Positions 16,705-27,728 of a DNA stretch of 64,000 bases are shown piece after piece. The notes beneath the pieces are model-generated. The model had not been told where the DNA came from, did not search any database, and worked only from the letters and a program-made list of their open reading frames with translations. The stretch spans positions 2,480,001 to 2,544,000 of the forward strand of contig NZ_CP089466.1 of assembly GCF_021233415.1 (NCBI RefSeq), written 5' to 3'. Position numbers and translations under genes: made by a program. How positions within the stretch are numbered: the first letter of the stretch is position 1; each line of letters opens with the position of its first letter. This DNA comes from Halobacterium litoreum (GTDB lineage Archaea > Halobacteriota > Halobacteria > Halobacteriales > Halobacteriaceae).

Positions 16705-16870
16705 CGTCGAGGCGGCCCTGTCGGCCGTCGATGTCGTCGAGCACGTCGAGTGTTTTCCGGATGGACGCGCGGATGGCGTCGCTTCGGTTCACGAACTTCC
16801 CGTCGTCGCCGACGTGGTCGTCCAAGTCCTCGAGGAGTTCCTCGGGAACTTCGACGCTTATCTTGGGCAT
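16694..16870 (-). CDS. Ribbon-helix-helix (CopG-type) regulator, integration target of the element
   Basis: 58 aa, MPKISVEVPEELLEDLDDHV, ending GRLDDDE. The beta strand PKISVEVP, helix EELLEDLDDHV, turn and second helix SRSDAIRASIRKTL-like segment (NRSDAIRASIRKTL here) make a classic CopG/NikR-like RHH DNA-binding domain. Too short for most ORF filters. It overlaps the yhhQ-like start by 11 bp. Its first four codons lie in the 13-bp left attachment repeat, so the mobile element is integrated exactly across its start codon without changing the protein. Confidence 0.88.
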   Translation of the reverse strand: MPKISVEVPEELLEDLDDHVGDDGKFVNRSDAIRASIRKTLDVLDDIDGRQGRLDDDE

Positions 16871-16871
16871 A
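16859..16871. repeat. attL: left 13-bp attachment repeat
   Basis: TATCTTGGGCATA. On the minus strand it reads codons 1-4 of the RHH gene (ATGCCCAAGATA) plus one upstream base. Identical to the right copy at 27716-27728. Confidence 0.85.
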
Positions 16872-16910
16872 ACTCACTCACCTTCTTGAGACTCTATTAT
16901 CCTTATCCGG
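16872..16910 (-). promoter_or_regulatory. Surrogate promoter for the RHH-yhhQ operon, supplied by the element
   Basis: Reading leftwards, the element end offers GGATAATAGA (16892-16901), centred 27 nt before the RHH start codon, the same spacing as the lost native TATA box. A GGTGAG stretch at about -12 may act as a Shine-Dalgarno site. Weaker than the native TTTATATT box; activity is inferred from position. Confidence 0.5.
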
Positions 16911-16937
16911 TGGACTGTATCACACTCTCGCAGTCGA

Positions 16938-16977
16938 AGTGCTCGCATAGTATTCTCTTAAGAATATTCAGAGCACT
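16938..16977. terminator. Nested inverted repeat near the left end
   Basis: AGTGCTC (16938-16944) pairs with GAGCACT (16971-16977) and encloses TATTCT-CTTA-AGAATA (16951-16966). The 40-nt structure lies between the leftward tbp gene and the RHH operon, so it could end tbp transcription or be a recombinase arm site. The rest of 16871-17098 has no gene that I can support. Confidence 0.45.
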
Positions 16978-17098
16978 CAACTTAAAAGACACCGTTCGTC
17001 GGCTGTACATCACAACAGTAGATTCAATTCAAGACCCCATGAATTATTTCCATCCACTACCATTCAAAAAGAGAGTATCTAATCATTTTAGAAGCGTG

Positions 17099-17635
17099 TC
17101 AGAAGGTTTCGATCTCAGCCTGGAGAGACTCAAACGCCATCTCTGCATCTTTCTTACTGCGACCGCCGGTGATGACCACTTTCCCGCTCGCAAAGATGAG
17201 AAGGACACAGTTGGTGTATTCAGGTCGGTAGACCAGACCGGGGAACTGCTCGGGTTCGTACTCTGTATCCTCGAACCCAAGTCGGACAACCATCGCATTG
17301 AGGTCAATGTCTTGGTCAAGGTTCCCGACACAGACGACGTTGCGGATGGCGAAGTTGGGATCGTTGATGTCTTCGATGAGACTGAGGTCTACCAAGATAG
17401 ACAGTAGATGGTCCCGCGCCTCCTCGATATCTTCTATTGACTCGCCACCTCGAATCGCGTAGGTCCCTGTTCGGTAGACGAGAATTAACGAGTTGCCTGT
17501 CCGCATCTGTATAGTCGGCGGCGCAGGTCGGTGGCTATCATCGTATTCAGCCAGAGGAATGTCTGCAGCGAGTTCCTGTAGGTCAATTTCGATGCCCAAA
17601 TCGCCAGATCCCACGACGTTAACGATCTCGACCAT
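17099..17635 (-). CDS. TATA-box-binding protein paralog, first repeat degenerate
   Basis: 178 aa, the usual archaeal TBP length, with both direct repeats (about 3-88 and 95-178). The second repeat is canonical: EYEPEQFPGLVY (125-136) and LIFASGKVVITGG (146-158). In the first repeat the start IVNVVGSGDLG is kept, but the segment matching EQFPGLVY is replaced by DDSHRPAPPTI (32-42), and the strand matching LIFASGK is LVYRTGT. The phenylalanines that wedge into TATA DNA are therefore missing from one half. Encoded in the mobile element, divergent from the LAGLIDADG-like gene with one shared TATA box. Probably an element-specific initiation factor or an antagonist of host TBP. Confidence 0.88.
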   Translation of the reverse strand: MVEIVNVVGSGDLGIEIDLQELAADIPLAEYDDSHRPAPPTIQMRTGNSLILVYRTGTYAIRGGESIEDIEEARDHLLSILVDLSLIEDINDPNFAIRNVVCVGNLDQDIDLNAMVVRLGFEDTEYEPEQFPGLVYRPEYTNCVLLIFASGKVVITGGRSKKDAEMAFESLQAEIETF

Positions 17636-17651
17636 CCTAATGTTTCGTAGA

Positions 17652-17667
17652 GGAAGATATATCCGAC
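17652..17667. promoter_or_regulatory. Shared palindromic TATA box between tbp paralog and rightward operon
   Basis: GATATATC (17656-17663) is a perfect 8-bp palindrome, centred 24.5 nt before the tbp-paralog ATG (17635, leftward) and 28.5 nt before ATG 17688 (rightward). No other TATA-like box lies in the 52-bp gap, so one box likely serves both directions; this is why I start the rightward gene at 17688. Confidence 0.6.
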
Positions 17668-17687
17668 CACTCTTAATGCGATATGGT

Positions 17688-19088
17688 ATGGTCGGTCTTG
17701 GTCAAGTTGATCTTAAAACATTGTTGTCCGACGAGGAGATCGTCGGGCAGTTGCACGACGCCGGACGGACTCGTGATTACTCCCAAGAGTATACGGTAAC
17801 GGAGACCGCAAGTGGAAGGCTCCGAGTAAAGGGAGGGAACAAAGCAGTCGAATTCGACCGATACCACGAACTCGACCCCTCACTATTGATTTTCCTCGGG
17901 TTGTATGGAGGCGACGGTGACAAGACCGGATCCGTCGGATTCGGTCAGAAGAGCATCGACATCATGGAGCACGCCTACGACGAGATGGTCGAGTTCTTCG
18001 GTCACGAGTTCGACGTCACCTACCACATCACCGAAGATAGCCTGTTCTTCGAATCGGACGAGATGCAGGCCGAGCTGGAGGCGATGGACCACGACGGCGA
18101 ACCGCTGGAAAAGAAGAAACAGTATCTCATCGACGAGGTGTGGGAGATGCTGGAAGACCGAGGGATGCATGTTGACAGCGTCACTGCCACTGTTAGCGAC
18201 GTAAAAGGGGCTCGTAAGGCAGGACAGTCCAGCCGCGAGGATCTTATCGACCTCCGTGGCTCTAAGCCATTTCTTCCTATCATCCTCAAACTGATAGAAG
18301 GCGTCACAGCGACACTCTCAGATGACTTGCAATCGTATCCGAGCGATGATCCTTGGCTCGAATGGAACGACAATCCCTCCGATCTCTCCGCCTACGAAAT
18401 TAACATCCCTGACTACGTCGAGAATGCCGAGACATGTCAGTACTACACTGGCTCGGGCAAGCTCCGGCAGTACAAAATCGAGAAGAACTACGACGGCGTG
18501 ACGACGCTCCGGAAGCCCTATGGACAGACATTCGATGTCCACTCGGTAGCCGAGATCGGACCGCATTTCCTGTATATCGCGGGCCTCTATATGGCTGAAG
18601 GAGGGACACCGAAGGAGGTCTTAGTTTCCTTCTACGAGGAACCGTCTGATACTAGCCTCTCCATCGAATTCGTTTCGACAGAGAACGAGGAACTAGAAAT
18701 CCTGATTGATGGCTTCAATTCCGTGTGCGAAGACTTCGACGACTTTCTTAACTACTGGAAGGTGAAGATCGGGAGCCAGTATATGTACGAGACTGGGAAC
18801 GCCGCCGAGAAGATCGGTGCTCCAGTACTTCGCAGCGGGACGAAGGGACAGGGCAAGTCCCGCTCGTTCGAAGTCGCAGAGGGAATCAAGAAGTGGGGCA
18901 TCAAGACGTTCCCTGCTCTTGGGGAGATCGAGCAGTTCTTCAGTCACATCGAGCTGACTGGCGCAGGCATTCCACGGTGGCACATTGCCTTCTCCAGTTC
19001 GCCAGCAGTCCTCTTCTTCGCGCTAATGAACGATCTCGCATTCTATCCTGAGCGCGTCGAGCACTACGAGGTGAGCAAGGATGAGTAA
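17688..19088 (+). CDS. LAGLIDADG-like two-motif protein, putative nuclease
   Basis: 466 aa. Two segments match the LAGLIDADG helix: IFLGLYGGDG (residues 68-77) and LYIAGLYMAEG (295-305), each followed by beta-strand patterns as in homing endonucleases; the second is better (SIEFVSTENEELEILIDGF after it). Acidic Asp/Glu occupy the catalytic position in both (GDG, AEG). Not embedded in an intron or intein. Cleavage has to be tested; DNA binding only is possible. ATG 17676 is an alternative start. First gene of a rightward operon, overlapping the next gene by 8 bp. Confidence 0.65.
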   Translation: MVGLGQVDLKTLLSDEEIVGQLHDAGRTRDYSQEYTVTETASGRLRVKGGNKAVEFDRYHELDPSLLIFLGLYGGDGDKTGSVGFGQKSIDIMEHAYDEMVEFFGHEFDVTYHITEDSLFFESDEMQAELEAMDHDGEPLEKKKQYLIDEVWEMLEDRGMHVDSVTATVSDVKGARKAGQSSREDLIDLRGSKPFLPIILKLIEGVTATLSDDLQSYPSDDPWLEWNDNPSDLSAYEINIPDYVENAETCQYYTGSGKLRQYKIEKNYDGVTTLRKPYGQTFDVHSVAEIGPHFLYIAGLYMAEGGTPKEVLVSFYEEPSDTSLSIEFVSTENEELEILIDGFNSVCEDFDDFLNYWKVKIGSQYMYETGNAAEKIGAPVLRSGTKGQGKSRSFEVAEGIKKWGIKTFPALGEIEQFFSHIELTGAGIPRWHIAFSSSPAVLFFALMNDLAFYPERVEHYEVSKDE

Positions 19089-20046
19089 TACATTCGCTCA
19101 GCACTTTGGTTTCGACGCAGAGTTCGATCAGTCCGCCTTTGTCGACACGTTTGGCCGAGACAGCCTCGACACCGTAGTCGAGTTCTACCAGGGCGTCGTT
19201 GACAGACGGTCGACCGGATGGATCCCACTGCCGGATATGTTCTTCACCATCGGGGCATGCGAGATGCTCGGAGTTGACCACAGCCCCCTCTCAGACCGAG
19301 TGCCGTCGTATCTGTCGGAATTGCAGGTCGGTGGCGGCTACTGCCCTGTGCCCGAAGAGAAGATGGAAGGATGGCGAGCGGACCGGGAGCCAGACATCTA
19401 TTCGACGTATTATGCGGTCAAAACTCTCGGTCTCCTCGGTCGTTCATCTGGAGTGGATGTCGACACCTTCGTCGCTTCCCAGCAGGACGACGGATACATC
19501 TATAACGAGGAGTGGTCGAACACCATTCCCGAGTACCGATTCGACTCAGAGCTCCGCCAGCAGGTTCTATTGGGGCTCCTCCTGACCGACAATGTCGACA
19601 CGGATCCAATCGTGGCCGAACTCGACGAGAACGAGTTCCTCACGCCCATCTACTACTCGTGGCGGATTCGGAAGCACCTCGATATCGATCCGGCACTCAC
19701 CGATGAAGAAGCCGAGCGACTTGGTGACCTACAGAAGGACGGTGGGTTTCGGGAGTACCGCCTCAGTGACAAGACCGACGAACATGCAGGGAGCGACCAC
19801 CGAACGTGGCGCGACCAGAACCCACCGCACCTTTTCAGCAGCTTCTATGCCTACCATATCGCCAGCGAGACCGACTCTCGATTCAGCTACGACACTGGTG
19901 AGTTCATCGACTTCATCGCTGGGACGGAAGACGAGGAAGGGTTCGGTGTTGACGTCAACGCACGTGAGTTCGAAGCCCCGTTCGGTCGGACGTACACCCC
20001 GCTGGAGCATATGATGGTTCTCCTCACGCCCTCACTCGTACAATAG
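19081..20046 (+). CDS. Prenyltransferase/terpene-cyclase-like alpha-alpha toroid protein
   Basis: 321 aa. Shows repeated toroid motifs: LQVGGGY (81-87), DIYSTYYAVKTLGLLG (105-120), QQDDGYIYNEEW (134-145), and LQKDGGFREY (217-226), the QxxDGG-type turns of protein prenyltransferase beta subunits and squalene cyclases. The DxDD cyclase motif and an obvious zinc triad are not seen, so a binding or scaffold role is as likely as catalysis. Its ATG overlaps the preceding gene by 8 bp, implying a joint function with the LAGLIDADG-like protein. Confidence 0.7.
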   Translation: MSNTFAQHFGFDAEFDQSAFVDTFGRDSLDTVVEFYQGVVDRRSTGWIPLPDMFFTIGACEMLGVDHSPLSDRVPSYLSELQVGGGYCPVPEEKMEGWRADREPDIYSTYYAVKTLGLLGRSSGVDVDTFVASQQDDGYIYNEEWSNTIPEYRFDSELRQQVLLGLLLTDNVDTDPIVAELDENEFLTPIYYSWRIRKHLDIDPALTDEEAERLGDLQKDGGFREYRLSDKTDEHAGSDHRTWRDQNPPHLFSSFYAYHIASETDSRFSYDTGEFIDFIAGTEDEEGFGVDVNAREFEAPFGRTYTPLEHMMVLLTPSLVQ

Positions 20047-20078
20047 GTATAAACGAAATATGGACAAATCTGGGTGTC

Positions 20079-20288
20079 ATGAGGGAGACCAAGAGGGAGA
20101 TTCTTCAGCGAATTGGCCAGGAATCTACGTGGGGATACAACTTGGCTGACGAGTTGGACCTCACGCCTCAAACGGTCTACTCCCATCTGGACGACCTGGA
20201 GGAAGCGGAATACATCGAGCAGTCTGGTGAGGAGTCAGGTCGGACTATATTTTCTCTGACGGAGAAAGGGAAGTCGGAGATCGAGTAG
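20079..20288 (+). CDS. Small winged-helix regulator
   Basis: 69 aa. MRETKREILQRIGQESTWGY, then NLADELDLTPQTVYSHLDDLEEAEYIEQ and a beta wing (GRTIFSLTEKGKSEIE): a complete PadR/MarR-like winged helix and nothing more. Its own TATAAA (20048-20053) lies 28 bp before the ATG, so it can be made as a leaderless mRNA independent of the upstream operon. Convergent with the methyltransferase pair, one base between stops. Likely regulates element genes. Confidence 0.82.
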   Translation: MRETKREILQRIGQESTWGYNLADELDLTPQTVYSHLDDLEEAEYIEQSGEESGRTIFSLTEKGKSEIE

Positions 20289-20289
20289 G

Positions 20290-21822
20290 CTACTTTTCCA
20301 GGAACAGGATCTTCTCTTCCTGGATTGCGTTCTTACTGTGGACTTCGCCGATTGCAGTTGAGTTGAGGCTCTTCTCGACCAGATTCGCCTTCTCGTATCC
20401 AACCATCTCGCCAATGTCGTAGAGGAAGTCATCAGTCGGGATCTCGACGACTTCCTTGTCGTCACCAGCTTTGGTGGTGTTTCGACCGACCACGAGTACG
20501 AAGTTCCCTCCTTCGGGAAGCATCTGGTGCCCTTGATCCAGGACGTCACGCATGTCCCGGAAGTACTTGTAGAGGAGCGCAGCCTTGTTCTTCCGACGGA
20601 ATCCGACGTCGGCGTCAACGTTGAGGTCATAGACGCGCTTGATGAGTTCCTTCACGTTGTCGGGAAGCCAGAGCGAATCATAGTTGTCGAGGAACTCTGC
20701 TTCCAGATCTTCTTTCTCCTGCGGGCGGATCTCACGGTTTCCGATGACCTGTCGTTCGAGGTCGCGTCGGTCCTTCTTCTCCAGCAGTCCCAGCGTGAAG
20801 AGCGAAAGACGATACGTATCGACGTAGGGGAGACCCGTTGCATACGGGGGCGAGCAAACCATATGGTCTATGTCAGGGAGTGAGGTCTCCTCCGCCATTG
20901 TGGTCGCGTCCGCCTGTTCGACGACGGTCTCCTCGTTGAGATCGAACTTTGTCTTAAAGTCCTGCGTATCCTCGACGCGCTTGACGTTCTTGTTGAACCG
21001 GTCTTCGAACATCTCGTAGACGTCGACATCCTCCGGAATCTCGTCAGCACGGAGTACCCGGATCTGATCCTCGTCCTGGTGGGAGACTGTCCGAAGCAGG
21101 TCACTCAGCGTGATGAACAGGAGCTGTCGAACCTGATCGTTCTGGACGTCAGAGATTTGGCTGTGGAGGCCACGGACCTGGTTGATGACGGGGTCCTCGA
21201 ACCACTTATCGAGATAGTCGGGTTCCGGAAGGGTGTACTCCTCGCTAGTGAGTGTTTTGCACGAGAAGGAAAACTCCCGCATCTCGCTGAGGTCTACGTC
21301 GAGCGTGCTGACCTTTGTTCTCGACAGGTAGACCGAGAACGGGTTGATGTCGATGCCGACTGTGTTCAGCGACTCCAGGCGACCCTGGTAGAGCGTCGTC
21401 CCGCTGCCACAGAACGGGTCCATCACCGTATCTCCTGCTTCAAGGTCGAGCAGACTGAAGATCGTAGAGACGAGTTGCGGATAGAACTTACCTGTATACT
21501 CGTGTAGTCCGTGTCCGAGATAGCGGGCCGATTTCCGTGTCCCCTCTGGAACTTCAGTCAGCTCGTATTGGTGCCCTCGCGGAGTGAGAGTTTCGCCCGA
21601 CTCTTGGTTTTTTACCGTCTGAAAGAACGGGAGTGTCTCCAGATTGTACTCGGGAACCTCTGCCTCGGTACTCAGACTGAGACCGTTCTCGACGAGGAAT
21701 GGGTTCTCGGAGATTTCGCCGTACTGCTCCAGAATCTCCTCGCACATGTCCTCCTCGTAGCTCCACATACTGTAGTCTGGATAGACGAGGAGGTAGTCAA
21801 GCATGGTCTGGTTCTCACTCAT
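20290..21822 (-). CDS. DNA methyltransferase (amino-MTase type), second of a pair
   Basis: 510 aa. SAM motif I DPFCGSGT (135-142) precedes the catalytic motif SPPY (324-327), as in N6-adenine/N4-cytosine DNA methyltransferases. HEYTGKFYP (107-115) is the conserved element before the SAM motif. Between motifs is a long target-recognition-like region (about 200-310). Its ATG overlaps the stop of the upstream methyltransferase (ATGA), so both are co-translated. No restriction endonuclease of a known family is adjacent. The base modified cannot be told. Confidence 0.85.
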   Translation of the reverse strand: MSENQTMLDYLLVYPDYSMWSYEEDMCEEILEQYGEISENPFLVENGLSLSTEAEVPEYNLETLPFFQTVKNQESGETLTPRGHQYELTEVPEGTRKSARYLGHGLHEYTGKFYPQLVSTIFSLLDLEAGDTVMDPFCGSGTTLYQGRLESLNTVGIDINPFSVYLSRTKVSTLDVDLSEMREFSFSCKTLTSEEYTLPEPDYLDKWFEDPVINQVRGLHSQISDVQNDQVRQLLFITLSDLLRTVSHQDEDQIRVLRADEIPEDVDVYEMFEDRFNKNVKRVEDTQDFKTKFDLNEETVVEQADATTMAEETSLPDIDHMVCSPPYATGLPYVDTYRLSLFTLGLLEKKDRRDLERQVIGNREIRPQEKEDLEAEFLDNYDSLWLPDNVKELIKRVYDLNVDADVGFRRKNKAALLYKYFRDMRDVLDQGHQMLPEGGNFVLVVGRNTTKAGDDKEVVEIPTDDFLYDIGEMVGYEKANLVEKSLNSTAIGEVHSKNAIQEEKILFLEK

Positions 21823-23189
21823 CGCTCGAACACCAGAATTGCTTCCTTCTTCGCCCGTGCGTTCTCAGGGTTGAACGTCTTCTTGGTGGAGTCGATGTTC
21901 CGGAAGAACTCCTTCTCGACCTCAAATGCGGTGTCTTCCGCGAGTTCCTTCATCAACTCGTTATTCCGGACGATTTCACCTTCCAGTTTCGAGTCGCCGA
22001 TGACCATACAGAGGCGACCACCCTCCTTTGTGTTCTTCTCCAGATTCCGAAGACACGCCGTCATGTTCTCGCGGAACGTTTCCATGTTCTCCTCCTTCGA
22101 TCGGTTCTGGTAGACGAGGTGCGCCCCTATCTCGTCATGTTTCATCTGACGGGGCTTCATGTCCAGCCAGAACATCCGATACTTGTGGTATAGGTGGTAG
22201 TCGTAGGCGTTAGGATACGGCGGTGACGTGATGATGAGATCGGCCTTCTCGTCGAGCGTAAAGTCCTCTCGGAGATCCTGAGAGAAGACGGTCGGAGTGT
22301 ACTTCTCGTCGCAGTCGTTGTAGAAGTCCTCCATACCCCGAACCATCCGGTTGAGTTTATTCTCGTATTTGCGGATGGTCTCGCCGGGCTCCATTTCGTT
22401 GTCGACGCGAGTGTACCGCGTGTTACTGTCCTGGTATGAGACGTTGACGATGATACTGGAGAACCCGGTTTTGAAGAAGTCCTGGAGACTGTCGTCCTCA
22501 ACCTCGTTGATGTATCCCTTGATTATGGACAGCTCGCGGATCGCATTGTCCGAGAACCATCCGTCCAGTTTTGGGATGTCAGGAACCTCATACTCTTCTT
22601 GGAAGTTATGGGCTCGTTTGACATCGTCGAGGTGGTCACGGACATTGTTACCCAAAGTTTCCGGCTCCAACGGGGTCGCCTTCGACCGTGTCATTAGAGT
22701 GGCAAGAGGGTTCAAATCAGTCCCGACTGCGTGACGATCTTTGCGAATCGCCTCGACAACTGCAGTTCCACAGCCGCAGAATGGATCCCATACGACATCC
22801 CCTTTCTCGGAGAAGTATTTCATTAGAGTCGCCGGGATCTGCGGGATGAATTTTGCAGGGTAAGGATGGTAGTCGTGTGTAAATTTATTTGTTTTTGCAT
22901 CTTCAAACCGCCAGTCGACGAAATCTAAGTGGTCCGATTCCATTCTATACTCTCTGTGTTGGCTACTCTCTTCCTCATGCGTGATATACCCAATGTTTCC
23001 TAAGCCACTATCTCCACTACTGCCGCTGCTCAAAAATTGAAATATATTTGATGGTTTTGTACAGTAGGGAGGGGATATCATGTTCTGTGAAAATCCTGGC
23101 TGATGTTTTTGCTTGATCTGATGTTTACTAGTATTCTCCGCGCCGTTATGCTCAGACGGTATTCCTTTTTGTTGTGGGTTCAAACTCAT
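21819..23189 (-). CDS. DNA methyltransferase (amino-MTase type), first of a pair
   Basis: 456 aa from ATG 23189. HPYPAKFIP (108-116), SAM motif DPFCGCGT (135-142) and SPPY (322-325) stand at nearly the same residues as in its partner, so the two are paralogues. This colinearity and a GGAGG Shine-Dalgarno 8 nt before ATG 23189 decide the start. The catch is a Ser/Gln/Asn-rich N-terminal 80 residues of low similarity to anything; ATG 22943 would remove it. Expressed behind a structured leader (23190-23268). Confidence 0.82.
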   Translation of the reverse strand: MSLNPQQKGIPSEHNGAENTSKHQIKQKHQPGFSQNMISPPYCTKPSNIFQFLSSGSSGDSGLGNIGYITHEEESSQHREYRMESDHLDFVDWRFEDAKTNKFTHDYHPYPAKFIPQIPATLMKYFSEKGDVVWDPFCGCGTAVVEAIRKDRHAVGTDLNPLATLMTRSKATPLEPETLGNNVRDHLDDVKRAHNFQEEYEVPDIPKLDGWFSDNAIRELSIIKGYINEVEDDSLQDFFKTGFSSIIVNVSYQDSNTRYTRVDNEMEPGETIRKYENKLNRMVRGMEDFYNDCDEKYTPTVFSQDLREDFTLDEKADLIITSPPYPNAYDYHLYHKYRMFWLDMKPRQMKHDEIGAHLVYQNRSKEENMETFRENMTACLRNLEKNTKEGGRLCMVIGDSKLEGEIVRNNELMKELAEDTAFEVEKEFFRNIDSTKKTFNPENARAKKEAILVFER

Positions 23190-23193
23190 TTGT

Positions 23194-23266
23194 GCTTCCT
23201 CCACGGAAGCGTGGTCGCGTGCTCCTACCACGCGGCCTCTGACTTTCGAGGCTGTACCATGCTTCC
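23194..23266 (-). promoter_or_regulatory. Candidate switchable leader RNA (Y-shaped) before the methyltransferase pair
   Basis: As minus-strand RNA: GGAAGCATGGT (23266-23256) pairs with ACCACGCTTCC (23215-23205; ten Watson-Crick pairs and one G-U) and closes a three-way junction with arms GCCTC/GAGGC (8-nt loop) and CGCGTG/CACGCG (7-nt loop). The same GCTTCC can instead pair with GGAAGC (23199-23194), which contains half of the GGAGG ribosome site. The two folds exclude each other, as in a translational riboswitch. Confidence 0.6.
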
Positions 23267-23287
23267 CCACTACTATTAGTATATAGA

Positions 23288-23303
23288 ACGCTATAAATCT
23301 TGA
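23288..23303 (-). promoter_or_regulatory. TATA box of the methyltransferase leader
   Basis: ATTTATAG on the minus strand (23298-23291). A start 27 nt downstream would be near 23268, two bases before the closing stem of the Y-shaped leader, giving a leader of about 79 nt. Confidence 0.55.
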
Positions 23304-24145
23304 AATCAATCTGTCATGTGCCGTTATACGCCCATTGGATGTGTGACTTATTTGGGTTTAATACTAGACAGTATCTCGATCTCAGATGCCGGGTTAGGAT
23401 GACGCCGTTCACGAGGATACTCAGACGACTAAGAAACTCTTGGAACTCGGGGGCGTCCAAGCGTGTTCGTGTTACGAACAGTCTATTCTATGAGGAGTAC
23501 AATCGGACATCGACGCGACTCGATAGGGCACTCTGGCTAATCGGAAAAATTGGGTCAGCGGAGGATAGACTACTTGAGCGAGAAGGTAGATCGGTACTGA
23601 CAACGTGTGGTTGGTTTTGCTCAACTCCGTTCGACTATCCCAAAAATGGCCCTTATTTGGAGAGGCATCCGGACAGGCGTTTATGTTTTTTATTACCCAA
23701 ATCTGCAGTTTTCTTGAATTGATGAGGTCGTCTCAATCGTGGCCGAACGGTGTTTTGCAGTTCTAGAACTGGCAGAGAACCCCTACCCTATGAGGGGCCG
23801 GCTCGTTACTGTTACTCGGTAGTCCCTCCGCTGCTATCCGCTGTAGAGTGATAGTAGCTCAGTCTATGAGTGTGTTGGCTCGATTCCAATGGGTAGCCAT
23901 ATGTCATAGACCGTGTTTTCGGGCGAGACCAACGTAGTTCAGTCTACGACTGAGCTAAGATCTCTATTGAGTCCCCGCTGAGCCAGTCCGTAACCAGACC
24001 TATTAGATATTCTAAATTAGTAAGATCCTCAACCACTCGCGTATCGACAGTCGCCGTGACCAGAACAGAAGTCAATAACCACTATACCAGAGAAAAGATG
24101 CGTATGTGGCTGAAGATCCTACTAAGTTAAGCTATCTAATACATC
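23304..24145. other. Gene-poor 840-bp stretch with structured segments
   Basis: No gene I can support. An open frame at 23300-23722 (+) lacks acidic halophile composition, promoter and any recognisable motif. A 34-codon open stretch at 23717-23820 (IDEVVSIVAERCF start) looks more protein-like but has no start codon and could be a gene remnant. A structured segment is listed separately at 23856-23956. The rest is AT-rich and unassigned; it may hold control or origin sites of the element. Confidence 0.4.
23856..23956. ncRNA. Candidate structured RNA or cis element
   Basis: AGCTCA (23856-23861) pairs with TGAGCT (23951-23956) and encloses an 8-bp stem GTCTATGA/TCATAGAC (23862-23869 with 23904-23911), itself holding TGGCT/AGCCA (23876-23880 with 23895-23899). 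The right part can also form its own hairpin AGTTCAG-CTGAGCT (23936-23956). GTAGCTCAGTCTATGAG and GTAGTTCAGTCTACGAC (23854, 23934) are 17-bp near-repeats. Strand and expression unknown. D-arm-like wording is present, but no full tRNA. Confidence 0.35.
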
Positions 24146-25348
24146 CTACCCGAAAGCCGGGAAGTTGAGGAAGTCCGGCCACACAAATTCATCTTTGAGG
24201 GCGAACTGCTCCGTGTTCCTGCCGTTGTCCTTCTTCACGACTTGGCCTAAACCAAGAGTCTCCAGTAGATCCATTCGCTTGCGCAACGTCTTGCGCGTTG
24301 AATCTGTCCCGCGGTGAGTCCTAAGATCCTTGGACGTGATCGGATTCGGTGTTTCAGGATCAACCACAGCACGAACGATTCCTCGGCGTTCTTTATGCAT
24401 CGTACTCAACGCCAGACGACTAGACACTTGGACGTCGTCTAGCTGGAGTTCTTCGCGGCCACACAACAGAGCGTGCCCGCGGGCGATATTTCGCAGACTG
24501 CTCATAATTCGATGTTCTCCTTCTCGTGTTCCGGTTTCAGTAGGTGCTCGGCAGTACGCAACAAGATGGGCAAGATAGACGATCCCATCACGAACCTCAC
24601 CGTGGGCAGCCGAATCCCACGTCACACTACCGTAGCCGCCATAGTGTTCCCAGACGTTACGTAGGAACGAGATTACCTCCGTTTGGCATTCAGCAACTTG
24701 CTCTCCATATTCACGCCCCTCAAACACATCGACAGCGACCTCGTGGGGACTCGCTTTACGTGGCAGGTAATGGAAGACCAGTCGATTTCCGACGTGGCCC
24801 ATAGCACTCCAAGCCCGGCCGTCAAGCGGCGTCGTCGCTCCGATGAGGGCGAATCGATAGTCGCCGTCGTAGCCACGCGAGCCGTGTGATCCAGTATCTC
24901 GGTGATAGCCTGAACCGTCCATCACTCGGGCGATTGTCGCCATCGTCGACCGAATCTGCTCGAAACTACCGCTAAACCAGCCTGCCATATCCGGATTGAC
25001 GAGCGACTTGCGACGGATCTTCGGTAACAGATCGTACTCTGCTAGCTCCTCCTCATTCTTGGACGGTTCATGACTTACGAACGCGGCGGGGGTGAGGTCG
25101 TCGCTCCAGTAGACTAGTTCCTCGTCGTTGAACTCGGCCCCTTTGAGGAAGTCGAGAGCCGTAGTCTTCCCTGCGCCGCTAGGACCGACAACAGCGATCC
25201 CCTCACAGCTATCCGGTCCGTCTAGCAGCAACGTCGTCTTCGTTGAGAGAACAGCCTCCGTGACGAGCGCGATACGCTTATCGAACACGTCCTCGACATC
25301 CTGAAGGACGGCGTCAAGGTTAGAAGCTGTACTATCGAGGTTAGTCAT
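24146..25348 (-). CDS. P-loop ATPase with C-terminal winged helix
   Basis: 400 aa. Walker A GPSGAGKT at residues 55-62; FALIGATTP (around 165-175) resembles a sensor-1 strand. No classic DExx Walker B is obvious. The C-terminal 90 residues (ITSKDLRTHRGTDSTRKTLRKRMDLLETLGL...) look like a winged helix, the layout of AAA proteins that load or license DNA machinery in archaeal plasmids and viruses. Its start overlaps the upstream 107-aa gene by 8 bp. Likely the replication, partition or control ATPase of the element; the exact family is not recognised. Confidence 0.7.
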   Translation of the reverse strand: MTNLDSTASNLDAVLQDVEDVFDKRIALVTEAVLSTKTTLLLDGPDSCEGIAVVGPSGAGKTTALDFLKGAEFNDEELVYWSDDLTPAAFVSHEPSKNEEELAEYDLLPKIRRKSLVNPDMAGWFSGSFEQIRSTMATIARVMDGSGYHRDTGSHGSRGYDGDYRFALIGATTPLDGRAWSAMGHVGNRLVFHYLPRKASPHEVAVDVFEGREYGEQVAECQTEVISFLRNVWEHYGGYGSVTWDSAAHGEVRDGIVYLAHLVAYCRAPTETGTREGEHRIMSSLRNIARGHALLCGREELQLDDVQVSSRLALSTMHKERRGIVRAVVDPETPNPITSKDLRTHRGTDSTRKTLRKRMDLLETLGLGQVVKKDNGRNTEQFALKDEFVWPDFLNFPAFG

Positions 25349-25664
25349 CAGAGACCTCCGGCTTCGAGAAGACTCTGTTCCAATGGTTGCTCTTACGTGG
25401 CTCAGATTTGACTGAGACTAATCTACGCGGAATCGTTGCGTGAGCGGCTACTATGTATCCGTCAATAACGCGAACCCAGTCTACCTCACACAGAGGATGA
25501 GCAATAATCCATCTAATAGCGGGAGGGACTTCGGTGGAGATCGTCATTCGGTCTGTTTCCTTGGAGCCGTACAGACGGACCTCCTTCTCGCAGGGGAACA
25601 TCTCGGGGTCTTCCCGAACTTCTCTGTTCTGGAGCAGCTCGGGATCCGGGTCATTGATCCTCAT
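25341..25664 (-). CDS. Hypothetical protein, middle gene of ATPase operon
   Basis: 107 aa. Not recognised. N-terminal third is acidic; the middle (VPPAIRWIIAHPLCEVDWVRVIDGYIVAAHATIP) is hydrophobic/beta-like. Strong Shine-Dalgarno GGAGGGG (25678-25672) sits 7 nt before the ATG, and the ATG overlaps the stop of the 31-aa leader gene (ATGA). Its end overlaps the ATPase start by 8 bp. The three are surely co-translated; it may bind the ATPase. Confidence 0.7.
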   Translation of the reverse strand: MRINDPDPELLQNREVREDPEMFPCEKEVRLYGSKETDRMTISTEVPPAIRWIIAHPLCEVDWVRVIDGYIVAAHATIPRRLVSVKSEPRKSNHWNRVFSKPEVSDD

Positions 25665-25756
25665 GATCGGACCCCTCCATATTTGCTGCTATAGTCAATA
25701 CCTGATACTGTCGACTTCCATGACCGCTTAGGACGGTCAATCTGTGTTCGGCTCAT
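25661..25756 (-). CDS. Hidden 31-aa leader gene of the ATPase operon
   Basis: Encodes MSRTQIDRPKRSWKSTVSGI and 11 more residues ending GGVRS; basic, unlike most halophile proteins. The TGA overlaps the ATG of the 107-aa gene as ATGA, the same coupling used elsewhere in this element, which is the main argument that it is translated. The start context CACAAATGAG is identical over 10 bp to that of the first methyltransferase. A TGACCG/CGGTCA hairpin lies inside it (25721-25739). It may be a translated leader peptide. Confidence 0.5.
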   Translation of the reverse strand: MSRTQIDRPKRSWKSTVSGIDYSSKYGGVRS

Positions 25757-25798
25757 TTGTGGTCCTACGGGATTCAACTGAGGTTTCCCTGAGACCCC

Positions 25799-25855
25799 AC
25801 GACCGCCTACCTACGGTATCGGCATCACCGTCCTCGACACTCCGAGGGCGGTCGT
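25799..25855 (-). promoter_or_regulatory. Second Y-shaped leader RNA candidate, before the ATPase operon
   Basis: ACGACCGC (25799-25806) and GCGGTCGT (25848-25855) form an 8-bp closing stem around two hairpins, ACGGT/ACCGT (25813-25831) and CCTCG/CGAGG (25832-25847). On the minus strand a TATA-like GTAATACA (25889-25882) would start transcription near 25859, just before the stem. GACCG and CGGTC recur in the downstream 31-aa gene, so alternative pairings are possible here too. Confidence 0.45.
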
Positions 25856-25958
25856 TCTAAAATCCAAGAGTGACATTTGATGTATTACAGCGTCAGTTCG
25901 CCACCTACATTAACATTTCGACACTCTAAGCAGTGTAAAAATCTAAAAATCGATTAAT

Positions 25959-26918
25959 TTATACCGATTTCGTGTCGCCGAACTTCTGGTAAGCATCTTT
26001 GACATCATCGTCGAGGATTCTAAGATAGCGTTCAGTCGTATCCAAGTTCTTGTGGCCCAAGTGCTTCTGGAGCGTCCGAATGTCGACACCGGACTTCAGA
26101 GCGTGGATAGCGTGTCCGTGCCGTAAGCTATGTGTCGTGATTCGCCATTTCGGCTTCCCGCCGGCGTCTGTGTACATCTGCTCTTGACAACCGGCGTTCT
26201 TGGCTGCCTGAACCACTAGCTTCCCGACCGTCTGTCTCGAAATCTGCTCTGATCGTTGACTCGGAAAGAGGTACGGGGACGTGGTCGATGGCCCATACGC
26301 ATCCCGATACCCGCTATCGATCCACTGGTCGAGAAGGAAATCAAGAGATGGCTGGTAGTAGACTGTCCGCCAGTCGTCCGTCTTACTGGAATAGACCCGA
26401 ATGCTCCGCTCCTCTCGGTCGATATTCTCTAGCTCCATACCAGCGAGTTCGTGACCTCTGACTCCGGTCTGCCACAGAAGCCGGATGATCAGCCGGTTCC
26501 GAAGTTGTGGCGACGGAGCGTGTTCGACCATCGCCTCCTTCTCGTCCTCGGTGACGTAGACGACATCTGCCTCGTTGTGCTTCTTCGTCCCGTTCGTGAG
26601 CGACCGTAGGTTACTCTGGTCGATTTCGTCGGCCGGGTTCTCCTCGATGACGTCCTTCCGGTCGAGGAATTTGTAGAACAGGCGAACACCGGACAGAGAG
26701 CTGTCGATTGAATTGGGTGCGTACCCCTTGTTCGCCAAGTGAGCGAGGAAGTCCTCAATTTCGAGCGGTCCAATCTCAGTCGGTTCGTATCCCGTCTCCT
26801 CCAGCCACTCGTTGAATCGGCGGAGCGCGTTCTTCCGTGCTTCGTGCGTGCCCGCTGACTTCATCCCCTTGACCCGCTTGAGAAAGCGGTTCATATGGTC
26901 GTTCTCGAACTCGGGCAT
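25959..26918 (-). CDS. Tyrosine recombinase / integrase of the element
   Basis: 319 aa. N-terminal SAM-like core-binding domain (residues 5-100), then the catalytic domain with Arg in TGVRGHELAGM, HSLRHGHAIH (His-x-x-Arg), GHKNLDTTERYLRI with the His and the Tyr nucleophile. XerC/D-type length. It should catalyse recombination between the 13-bp repeats at the element ends. Its ATG follows the upstream RHH-wHTH gene by 3 bp, so it is the last gene of a three-gene leftward operon. Confidence 0.95.
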   Translation of the reverse strand: MPEFENDHMNRFLKRVKGMKSAGTHEARKNALRRFNEWLEETGYEPTEIGPLEIEDFLAHLANKGYAPNSIDSSLSGVRLFYKFLDRKDVIEENPADEIDQSNLRSLTNGTKKHNEADVVYVTEDEKEAMVEHAPSPQLRNRLIIRLLWQTGVRGHELAGMELENIDREERSIRVYSSKTDDWRTVYYQPSLDFLLDQWIDSGYRDAYGPSTTSPYLFPSQRSEQISRQTVGKLVVQAAKNAGCQEQMYTDAGGKPKWRITTHSLRHGHAIHALKSGVDIRTLQKHLGHKNLDTTERYLRILDDDVKDAYQKFGDTKSV

Positions 26919-26921
26919 CGA

Positions 26922-27470
26922 TCACACCTCCTTGTAGTAGCGGCCGTCGTCGGTCTCTCTGACCGCATACGTCGTCTCCTGTAGGTGGTCGAGAGCGGCC
27001 TGTATCTGGTACCGAGGCACGTCGAGTCGCTCCGACAGCCACTCAATCGATCCCTGTTCCGGAGCAGGGACGCCGTCTGCCGTTTCGGAAATAACTGGCT
27101 CCGTGTGGGCCTCCTTCTTCGAGGGAAGCATCTCGAAGATATCGTCCGCAAGGGCCTCCGTTTCGGGTCCAACCGCCTCGCCGGTGACGGCTTCCCGAAC
27201 GTCCGTGAGTTGCCCTTTGATCCCGTCGAGGTGCTGTGCGAGTTGCTCCTGTTGGGTGTTCAGTTCCGTTAGCTGTTCGTGGATCTCCTGCGAGACCTCT
27301 CCACTGGAGCCGCTGGCTCGGTCGTGGAGGTATCGATTGACGGCTACGCGCACGAGTTGCGAGAGTGAATCGGCGTCGGGGTCGTCCTGAGCAGCCGACT
27401 CCCACTCATCTTTGGTGTCTGGATACACAGCAAGGGTGACGATCTCGTTTCGACGATCCTCGCCGTTCAT
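26922..27470 (-). CDS. RHH-like/coiled-coil/winged-helix protein upstream of integrase
   Basis: 182 aa from ATG 27470 (MNGEDRRNEIVTLAVYPDTK). N-terminal part (to about residue 55) reads like an RHH-type DNA-binding unit with SLSQLVRVAVNRYL; residues about 60-95 form a coiled coil (EIHEQLTELNTQQEQLAQHL); the C-terminal 55 residues (IEWLSERLDVPRYQIQAALDHLQET) look like a winged helix. Resembles haloarchaeal DUF5805-type proteins found next to XerC/D-like integrases. Probably controls or directs excision. Its ATG overlaps the stop of the small Cys gene. Confidence 0.75.
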   Translation of the reverse strand: MNGEDRRNEIVTLAVYPDTKDEWESAAQDDPDADSLSQLVRVAVNRYLHDRASGSSGEVSQEIHEQLTELNTQQEQLAQHLDGIKGQLTDVREAVTGEAVGPETEALADDIFEMLPSKKEAHTEPVISETADGVPAPEQGSIEWLSERLDVPRYQIQAALDHLQETTYAVRETDDGRYYKEV

Positions 27471-27658
27471 TCTGACCGCCCCACGTTGTAGTCCTGTTCG
27501 GGATCGAAGCACTCGAAGCACGGGAGATCGTCGCCATCTGGACCGGCACACCATTCCTTATCATTCTGACAAGTATCGTCCTCCTCGTCAATAGTCGGTT
27601 TAGCGAACTGGTCGATAGTCGTGACAGCGCGGCCGCTGTAAGGCGTTTCTGAAGCCAT
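27467..27658 (-). CDS. Small four-Cys protein, first gene of integrase operon
   Basis: 63 aa, acidic, with four cysteines (CQND...EWCAG...LPCFEC) that could hold one zinc. No family recognised. An AATTAATATCC box about 29 bp before the ATG gives a leaderless promoter for the whole small-Cys, RHH-wHTH, integrase operon. ATGA overlap with the next gene supports that it is real. Confidence 0.65.
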   Translation of the reverse strand: MASETPYSGRAVTTIDQFAKPTIDEEDDTCQNDKEWCAGPDGDDLPCFECFDPEQDYNVGRSE

Positions 27659-27715
27659 CTCTACATAGCATACTAAGACTGATAGGATATTAATTGTATT
27701 GGATAGTTGACACTA

Positions 27716-27728
27716 TATCTTGGGCATA
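27716..27728. repeat. attR: right 13-bp attachment repeat
   Basis: TATCTTGGGCATA, identical to attL. With the native bases to its right it forms GGGCATATGCCC (27722-27733), a perfect 12-bp palindrome, flanked by TCT/AGA; the pre-integration site was therefore a near-perfect 20-bp inverted repeat, fitting a tyrosine recombinase core. Confidence 0.85.

Follow-up and report, generated by a model that had tools for sequence, protein, structure and literature searches.

What a two-motif LAGLIDADG protein does beside a pair of DNA methyltransferases is the question raised by the stretch of Halobacterium litoreum DNA analysed here (64,000 nucleotides, positions 2,480,001 to 2,544,000 of contig NZ_CP089466.1; hereafter the window), which belongs to a genome of 2.7 Mb whose gene content reads as haloarchaeal. 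LAGLIDADG proteins, best known from selfish homing, form one of the major classes of DNA cutters with sequence specificity. In the window, the gene of such a protein (R1) overlaps that of a partner (R2) and faces two methyltransferase genes (M1 and M2). The comparisons presented below suggest that these four genes probably constitute a restriction-modification cassette, conserved across domains of life, the putative cutter of which very probably has the LAGLIDADG fold.

Gene arrangement and carrier element

R1 (17688–19088, + strand) encodes a single-chain protein of 466 residues, here regarded as a putative restriction nuclease, and R2 (19081–20046, + strand) encodes a protein of 321 residues; the two open reading frames overlap by 8 bp, in agreement with the preliminary description of this DNA. 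They are followed by a gene for a PadR-like winged-helix protein of 69 residues (20079–20288, + strand; Pfam score 31.4 bits against a cut-off of 27), a possible regulator. M1 (20290–21822, − strand) and M2 (21819–23309, − strand) lie on the opposite strand, tail to tail with R1 and R2, and this convergent arrangement is not a single operon. The longest frame of M2 starts with TTG at 23309, while homology favours the ATG at 22943 (374 residues).

Both proteins opposite R1 and R2 are indeed DNA methyltransferases, as had been proposed: they belong to the N6_N4_Mtase family, carry DPFCG and SPPY motifs (DPFCGSGTT and SPPY in M1) and match the PADLOC MTase_II model with E-values of 4.2e-57 and 1.8e-64. 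Their best PADLOC matches are Type II methyltransferase models, PDLC03377 for M1 and PDLC03364 for M2. An SPPY motif is usual in N4-cytosine methyltransferases, and its presence in M1 and M2 suggests that their mark may be m4C.

The four genes lie within a 10.86 kb integrative element (16859–27728) that is visible as a drop in GC content from about 0.69 to 0.47–0.59 between approximately 16.9 and 27.7 kb. The element is bounded by 13-bp direct repeats (16859–16871 and 27716–27728, both + strand) and its insertion point is the start codon of a small ribbon-helix-helix-like gene (family assigned by eye). Inside it are a tyrosine integrase gene (25959–26918, − strand), a TATA-binding protein gene (17099–17635; Pfam TBP, E-value 6.8e-41) that diverges from R1 at a distance of about 50 bp, and a gene for a 400-residue AAA-like protein (24146–25348) with the P-loop GPSGAGKTT and only weak family matches, which may serve the element as an ATPase for replication or maintenance. 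Since the repeats bound the element and the integrase lies inside it, the cassette is mobile cargo, as it also is in Priestia (see below). Element transfer, which had been offered as one possible function of the genes, is not supported: the cassette is the cargo of an element that has its own integrase. Among 12 congeners, six have the QueT-like and TatC genes adjacent, as at an empty site; in the remaining six TatC was not found within the approximately 1.5 kb examined. Because the empty site is seen in half of these genomes, the gap between QueT and TatC may be an insertion hotspot.

Motifs and predicted folds of R1 and R2

The two LAGLIDADG-like motifs reported for R1 are present as GLYGGDG (residues 71–77, with the acidic residue Asp76; 17898–17918, + strand) and GLYMAEG (residues 299–305, with Glu304; 18582–18602, + strand). 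From the composition of R1, the pattern GLYx[GA][DE]G would be expected once with a frequency of 4e-4 and twice with about 8e-8, figures that refer to a pattern chosen after the motifs of R1 were known. Both motifs, in the forms GLYxGDG and GLYxAEG, and both acidic residues are retained in all eight members of the R1 family, the window protein included. Searches of R1 against Pfam, NCBIfam and PADLOC produced no match with a LAGLIDADG, restriction or defence model, and the description of R1 as LAGLIDADG-like therefore rests on motifs, structure and conservation within the family. When compared with PDB sequences, R1 and its family profile gave nothing or chance-level matches, and an internal duplication was looked for by sequence and not found.

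An AlphaFold2 model of R1 calculated from seven sequences has a pTM of 0.80 and a mean pLDDT of 74.5, and is weak at the first motif (pLDDT below 50 for residues 76–81). Foldseek alone gave no match to this model at E ≤ 0.001, every E-value being above 0.1. When the Foldseek candidates were aligned to the model with VIA-align, the top 28 rows were all LAGLIDADG-fold proteins, among them the TliVMA intein (Z = 9.2), I-DmoI (Z = 9.1 over 163 residues at 3.5 Å), PI-SceI (Z = 8.3) and WhiA (Z = 8.0), and the first unrelated row dropped to 5.7; models that lack a clear counterpart often reach a best Z of 7 to 8, and the absence of a family from the match list is not counted as evidence. The fold anticipated from the motifs is thereby recovered by structural alignment, and R1 is very probably, as judged from this model and the motifs, a LAGLIDADG-fold protein with its acid pair intact. 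It is also free-standing, as first described: its neighbours on either side are complete genes, and nothing suggestive of an intein or intron was noticed.

The R2 protein of the window matches PF00432 with an E-value of 0.0021, its 17.9 bits falling short of the 26.5 required; this match was found in one of six family members scanned. The protein also has glycine motifs at residues 82, 134 and 218 that we take to be QW-like and that occur in the window copy alone. This sub-threshold match and these motifs weakly support the reading of R2 as a possible α–α toroid. Its structure model is poor (pLDDT 36), PDB sequence searches with R2 or its profile gave nothing or chance-level matches, and neither R2 nor R1 matches PLD or BfiI_DBD. 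The window and bacterial copies share about 20% identity together with invariant residues that include Ser142, Thr144, Arg149, Ser152, Glu153, Lys235, Asp237, Arg245, Asp249, Arg300 and Glu314 (the numbering is for Alicyclobacillus). A natural guess is that R2 is a subunit or control factor for R1.

Conservation of the cassette

A tblastn search of 72,556 plasmid records identified one relative of R1, in Priestia aryabhattai, with 31% identity over 96% of R1. The gene that follows it also overlaps by 8 bp and encodes a relative of R2 (22% identity; E-value 9e-8 from a two-sequence comparison). Downstream, across the start of the circular record, are an M1-like frame and an M2-like frame, the latter broken exactly at the record join. 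The plasmid that carries this cassette is typed as mobilizable. Upstream of the Priestia cassette are an AAA ATPase gene and a McrC-family gene (McrB/McrC-type; L002 6781–10365), and downstream (L004 3860–5275) a 471-residue protein shows an HTH and, by eye, a PD-(D/E)XK-like stretch. Besides R1, Priestia thus has another possible nuclease near the cassette, P0013, with a PD-(D/E)XK-like stretch recognized by eye and no family match.

A collection of genomes from 84,980 species was scanned once with a DNA pattern for WK[VIM]K[VIM]GxQ[YF], which gave 20 loci. Six of these are relatives of R1 by tblastn, from Lachnospiraceae, Thermoplasmatota, Anaerolineales, Alicyclobacillus sendaiensis, Clostridia and Latescibacteria; for the other 14 the window protein gave no R1 counterpart at E ≤ 1, and these loci were discarded. 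With the Priestia plasmid these make seven relatives, and the family is rare, with eight members found in all. R1 and R2 were each found in one of 391 genomes sampled from the class of the window, which in both cases is the window's own genome. Surveys with family profiles, in which the target genome is counted, found the family in 1/392 genomes of the window's phylum, 1/246 of the order of the Lachnospiraceae genome, 1/201 of the phylum of the Anaerolineales genome and 1/200 of the class of the Alicyclobacillus genome. In the phylum of the Thermoplasmatota genome the result was 4/145, comprising the known genome, G1364 and two weak matches (G1420 and G1460); the G1364 locus (L077 7597–8052) is a decayed R1-like fragment with no R2 or methyltransferase matches nearby. 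At the known Thermoplasmatota locus (L030 1212–2384) a different methyltransferase-like gene lies upstream of R1 on the opposite strand.

R2 directly follows R1 at all seven loci where the DNA continues downstream (the window, Priestia and five others), which bears out the expectation that the two families co-occur. A relative of M1 is next at 7/7 loci and a relative of M2 is present at 6/6 testable loci; the Clostridia contig ends in M1 and is outside the M2 count, and the Thermoplasmatota contig ends in R1. M1 and M2 are fused into one protein in Anaerolineales (931 residues) and Latescibacteria (923 residues) and are two proteins in Lachnospiraceae and Alicyclobacillus. The Lachnospiraceae, Alicyclobacillus and Latescibacteria loci, which were read more widely, have unrelated flanks on each side (neighbours judged by eye), indicating that the conserved unit is R1-R2-M1-M2. 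No winged-helix gene was seen in the bacterial cassettes, so that this protein, originally listed with the module, is not retained as a part of it. The association of the four genes spans archaea and several bacterial phyla, with identities of around 30%. In trees of M1 and M2 the window copies fall on long branches and are not firmly placed.

Scans of viral contigs with R1 queries or patterns found no cassette, no R2 family member was found in viral contigs and no relatives were found in phage records. A family search of the viral contigs gave five loci, all of which represent one phage portal-protein intein that resembles the second repeat of R1 (31–32% identity over about 100 residues). The intein carriers are contigs L055–L059 of the viral collection (e.g. 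L056 6411–9809), and the host protein reads as a portal protein.

The restriction slot, alternative readings and known systems

The place occupied by R1 and R2 was compared with that in seven plasmid records containing relatives of the Priestia methyltransferase at E ≤ 1e-20, Priestia itself included. A nuclease adjoins the related methyltransferases in five of the six other records (PLD in three, HNH in one and a Type II model in one). In Roseibium, M2 and M1 are followed by a PLD protein with BfiI_DBD (E-value 7e-72); this order is repeated in Methylobacterium, where the PLD protein is annotated as such, and in Rhizobium a PLD protein (PLDc_2 with 23.1 bits, the cut-off being 27) converges on M2-M1. 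In Helicobacter the protein that comes after two methyltransferases matches a PADLOC model for Type II restriction enzymes (E-value 5e-67), and in a Pseudanabaena plasmid (L069 4993–8918) two methyltransferases precede an annotated HNH endonuclease. Geobacillus has one methyltransferase and no annotated nuclease adjoining it. The best PADLOC models of the window M1 and M2 are those of the pair beside the Roseibium BfiI enzyme, at 30–35% identity. M1 of the Rhizobium PLD system shares 42% identity with M1 of the Alicyclobacillus R1-R2 system, compared with 32% with M1 of the Roseibium BfiI system. The site of BfiI is ACTGGG. As a nuclease is present in this position in five of six comparison records, R1 and R2 appear to stand where the restriction enzyme would be in a BfiI-like system with two methyltransferases. 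The earlier idea of a restriction-like module gains support from this comparison, the pair recurring with two methyltransferase families at a place where relatives carry a BfiI-type or other nuclease.

The most likely reading is accordingly a Type II-like system acting on an asymmetric site, the cutter being a LAGLIDADG protein that has a partner as second subunit. A shared site, probably asymmetric, would be methylated on one strand by M1 and on the other by M2, and R1, with two non-identical active-site halves (Asp76 and Glu304), would cut at or near this site if it is unmethylated. R2, translated from the overlapping frame, would be an obligate subunit of the nuclease or a factor controlling its specificity or activity; the R1-R2 complex that this supposes is the weakest step of the scheme. 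Points that weigh against the scheme are the lack of a match to any curated LAGLIDADG profile, the Foldseek result and the low model confidence at the first motif, the weakly supported fold of R2, P0013 near the Priestia cassette, the convergent orientation of M1 and M2 in the window and the rarity of the family. It is considered likely that the locus is such a mobile restriction-modification cassette, in which M1 and M2 protect the shared site, R1 cuts unmethylated DNA and R2 serves as subunit or control factor. The broader proposal, that a LAGLIDADG cutter in a two-methyltransferase system, with a second and possibly toroid-like subunit, represents a structurally new class of restriction enzyme that mobile DNA has carried between archaea and bacteria, is favoured somewhat less strongly, although still on balance.

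R1 might instead be a selfish homing endonuclease, with R2 as its helper and a long homing site, that rides with a methyltransferase pair serving something else. The structures nearest to R1 are those of homing endonucleases and inteins, a phage intein endonuclease is its distant sequence relative and the carrier is a mobile element. This explanation is nevertheless unlikely, given that R1 lies in no intron or intein, that the four genes have stayed together across archaea and several bacterial phyla despite their divergence, and that restriction nucleases occupy the corresponding place beside most of the related methyltransferase pairs. The presence of WhiA, which has a LAGLIDADG domain, among the best structural matches would also be consistent with R1 being a non-cutting DNA-binding regulator of the methyltransferases. 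Retention of both acids throughout the family argues against such a role, as does the fact that removal of R1 and R2 would leave the cassette without a nuclease at the loci with wide flanks, and a regulator is very improbable.

Equally slight is the probability of a more complex or modification-dependent defence (e.g. McrBC-assisted or abortive) in which R1 and R2 respond to a trigger other than an unmethylated site. McrB/McrC-type genes do adjoin the Priestia cassette, and a second subunit is unusual among Type II enzymes, but inspection by eye of the extended flanks at the Lachnospiraceae, Alicyclobacillus and Latescibacteria loci revealed no McrBC-like gene, and the best matches of M1 and M2 are Type II models. 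On gene content, with methyltransferase genes beside a putative nuclease gene, the cassette is thus classed as a Type II-like restriction-modification system. It is not classed as a BfiI system, since its nuclease is not a PLD protein with a BfiI DNA-binding domain, nor as a homing element, R1 being a separate complete gene that R2 follows at all seven loci where the DNA continues.

If this restriction-modification reading is true, the LAGLIDADG fold too has been recruited for immunity, and R1 would be a natural single-chain cutter for asymmetric sites that is coupled to two methyltransferases, in a setting where the role of the partner becomes testable. For studies of the re-assembly of restriction systems, methyltransferases of one family that are combined with exchangeable nucleases (PLD, HNH and LAGLIDADG) would be ready material. 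In searches of open PMC full text, no LAGLIDADG restriction enzyme was recognized from titles and abstract openings. The folds of the Type II restriction enzymes described in one review are PD-(D/E)XK, HNH, GIY-YIG, PLD and half-pipe, and the word LAGLIDADG is absent from that review (PMC4081073).

Among known systems, the HNH, GIY-YIG and half-pipe Type II enzymes resemble R1 in placing a fold other than PD-(D/E)XK in the restriction slot (PMC4081073), and differ in the folds used. The homing endonucleases I-DmoI and PI-SceI and the intein endonucleases share with R1 the two-motif single-chain fold and both catalytic acids, whereas R1 is free-standing, has extra segments and is set together with R2 and two methyltransferases in a cassette that resembles an operon. 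WhiA (DUF199) likewise has the LAGLIDADG fold in a non-homing setting; it is a transcription factor (PMC3781837), while R1 keeps both acids and adjoins methyltransferases. BfiI/BmrI-type Type IIS systems also have two methyltransferases of the PDLC03364 and PDLC03377 families beside a nuclease gene, and the nuclease of the Rhizobium PLD system converges on M2-M1 just as in the window; the nuclease of the BfiI/BmrI type is a PLD protein with the BfiI DNA-binding domain, in contrast to the LAGLIDADG-fold protein and R2 found here.
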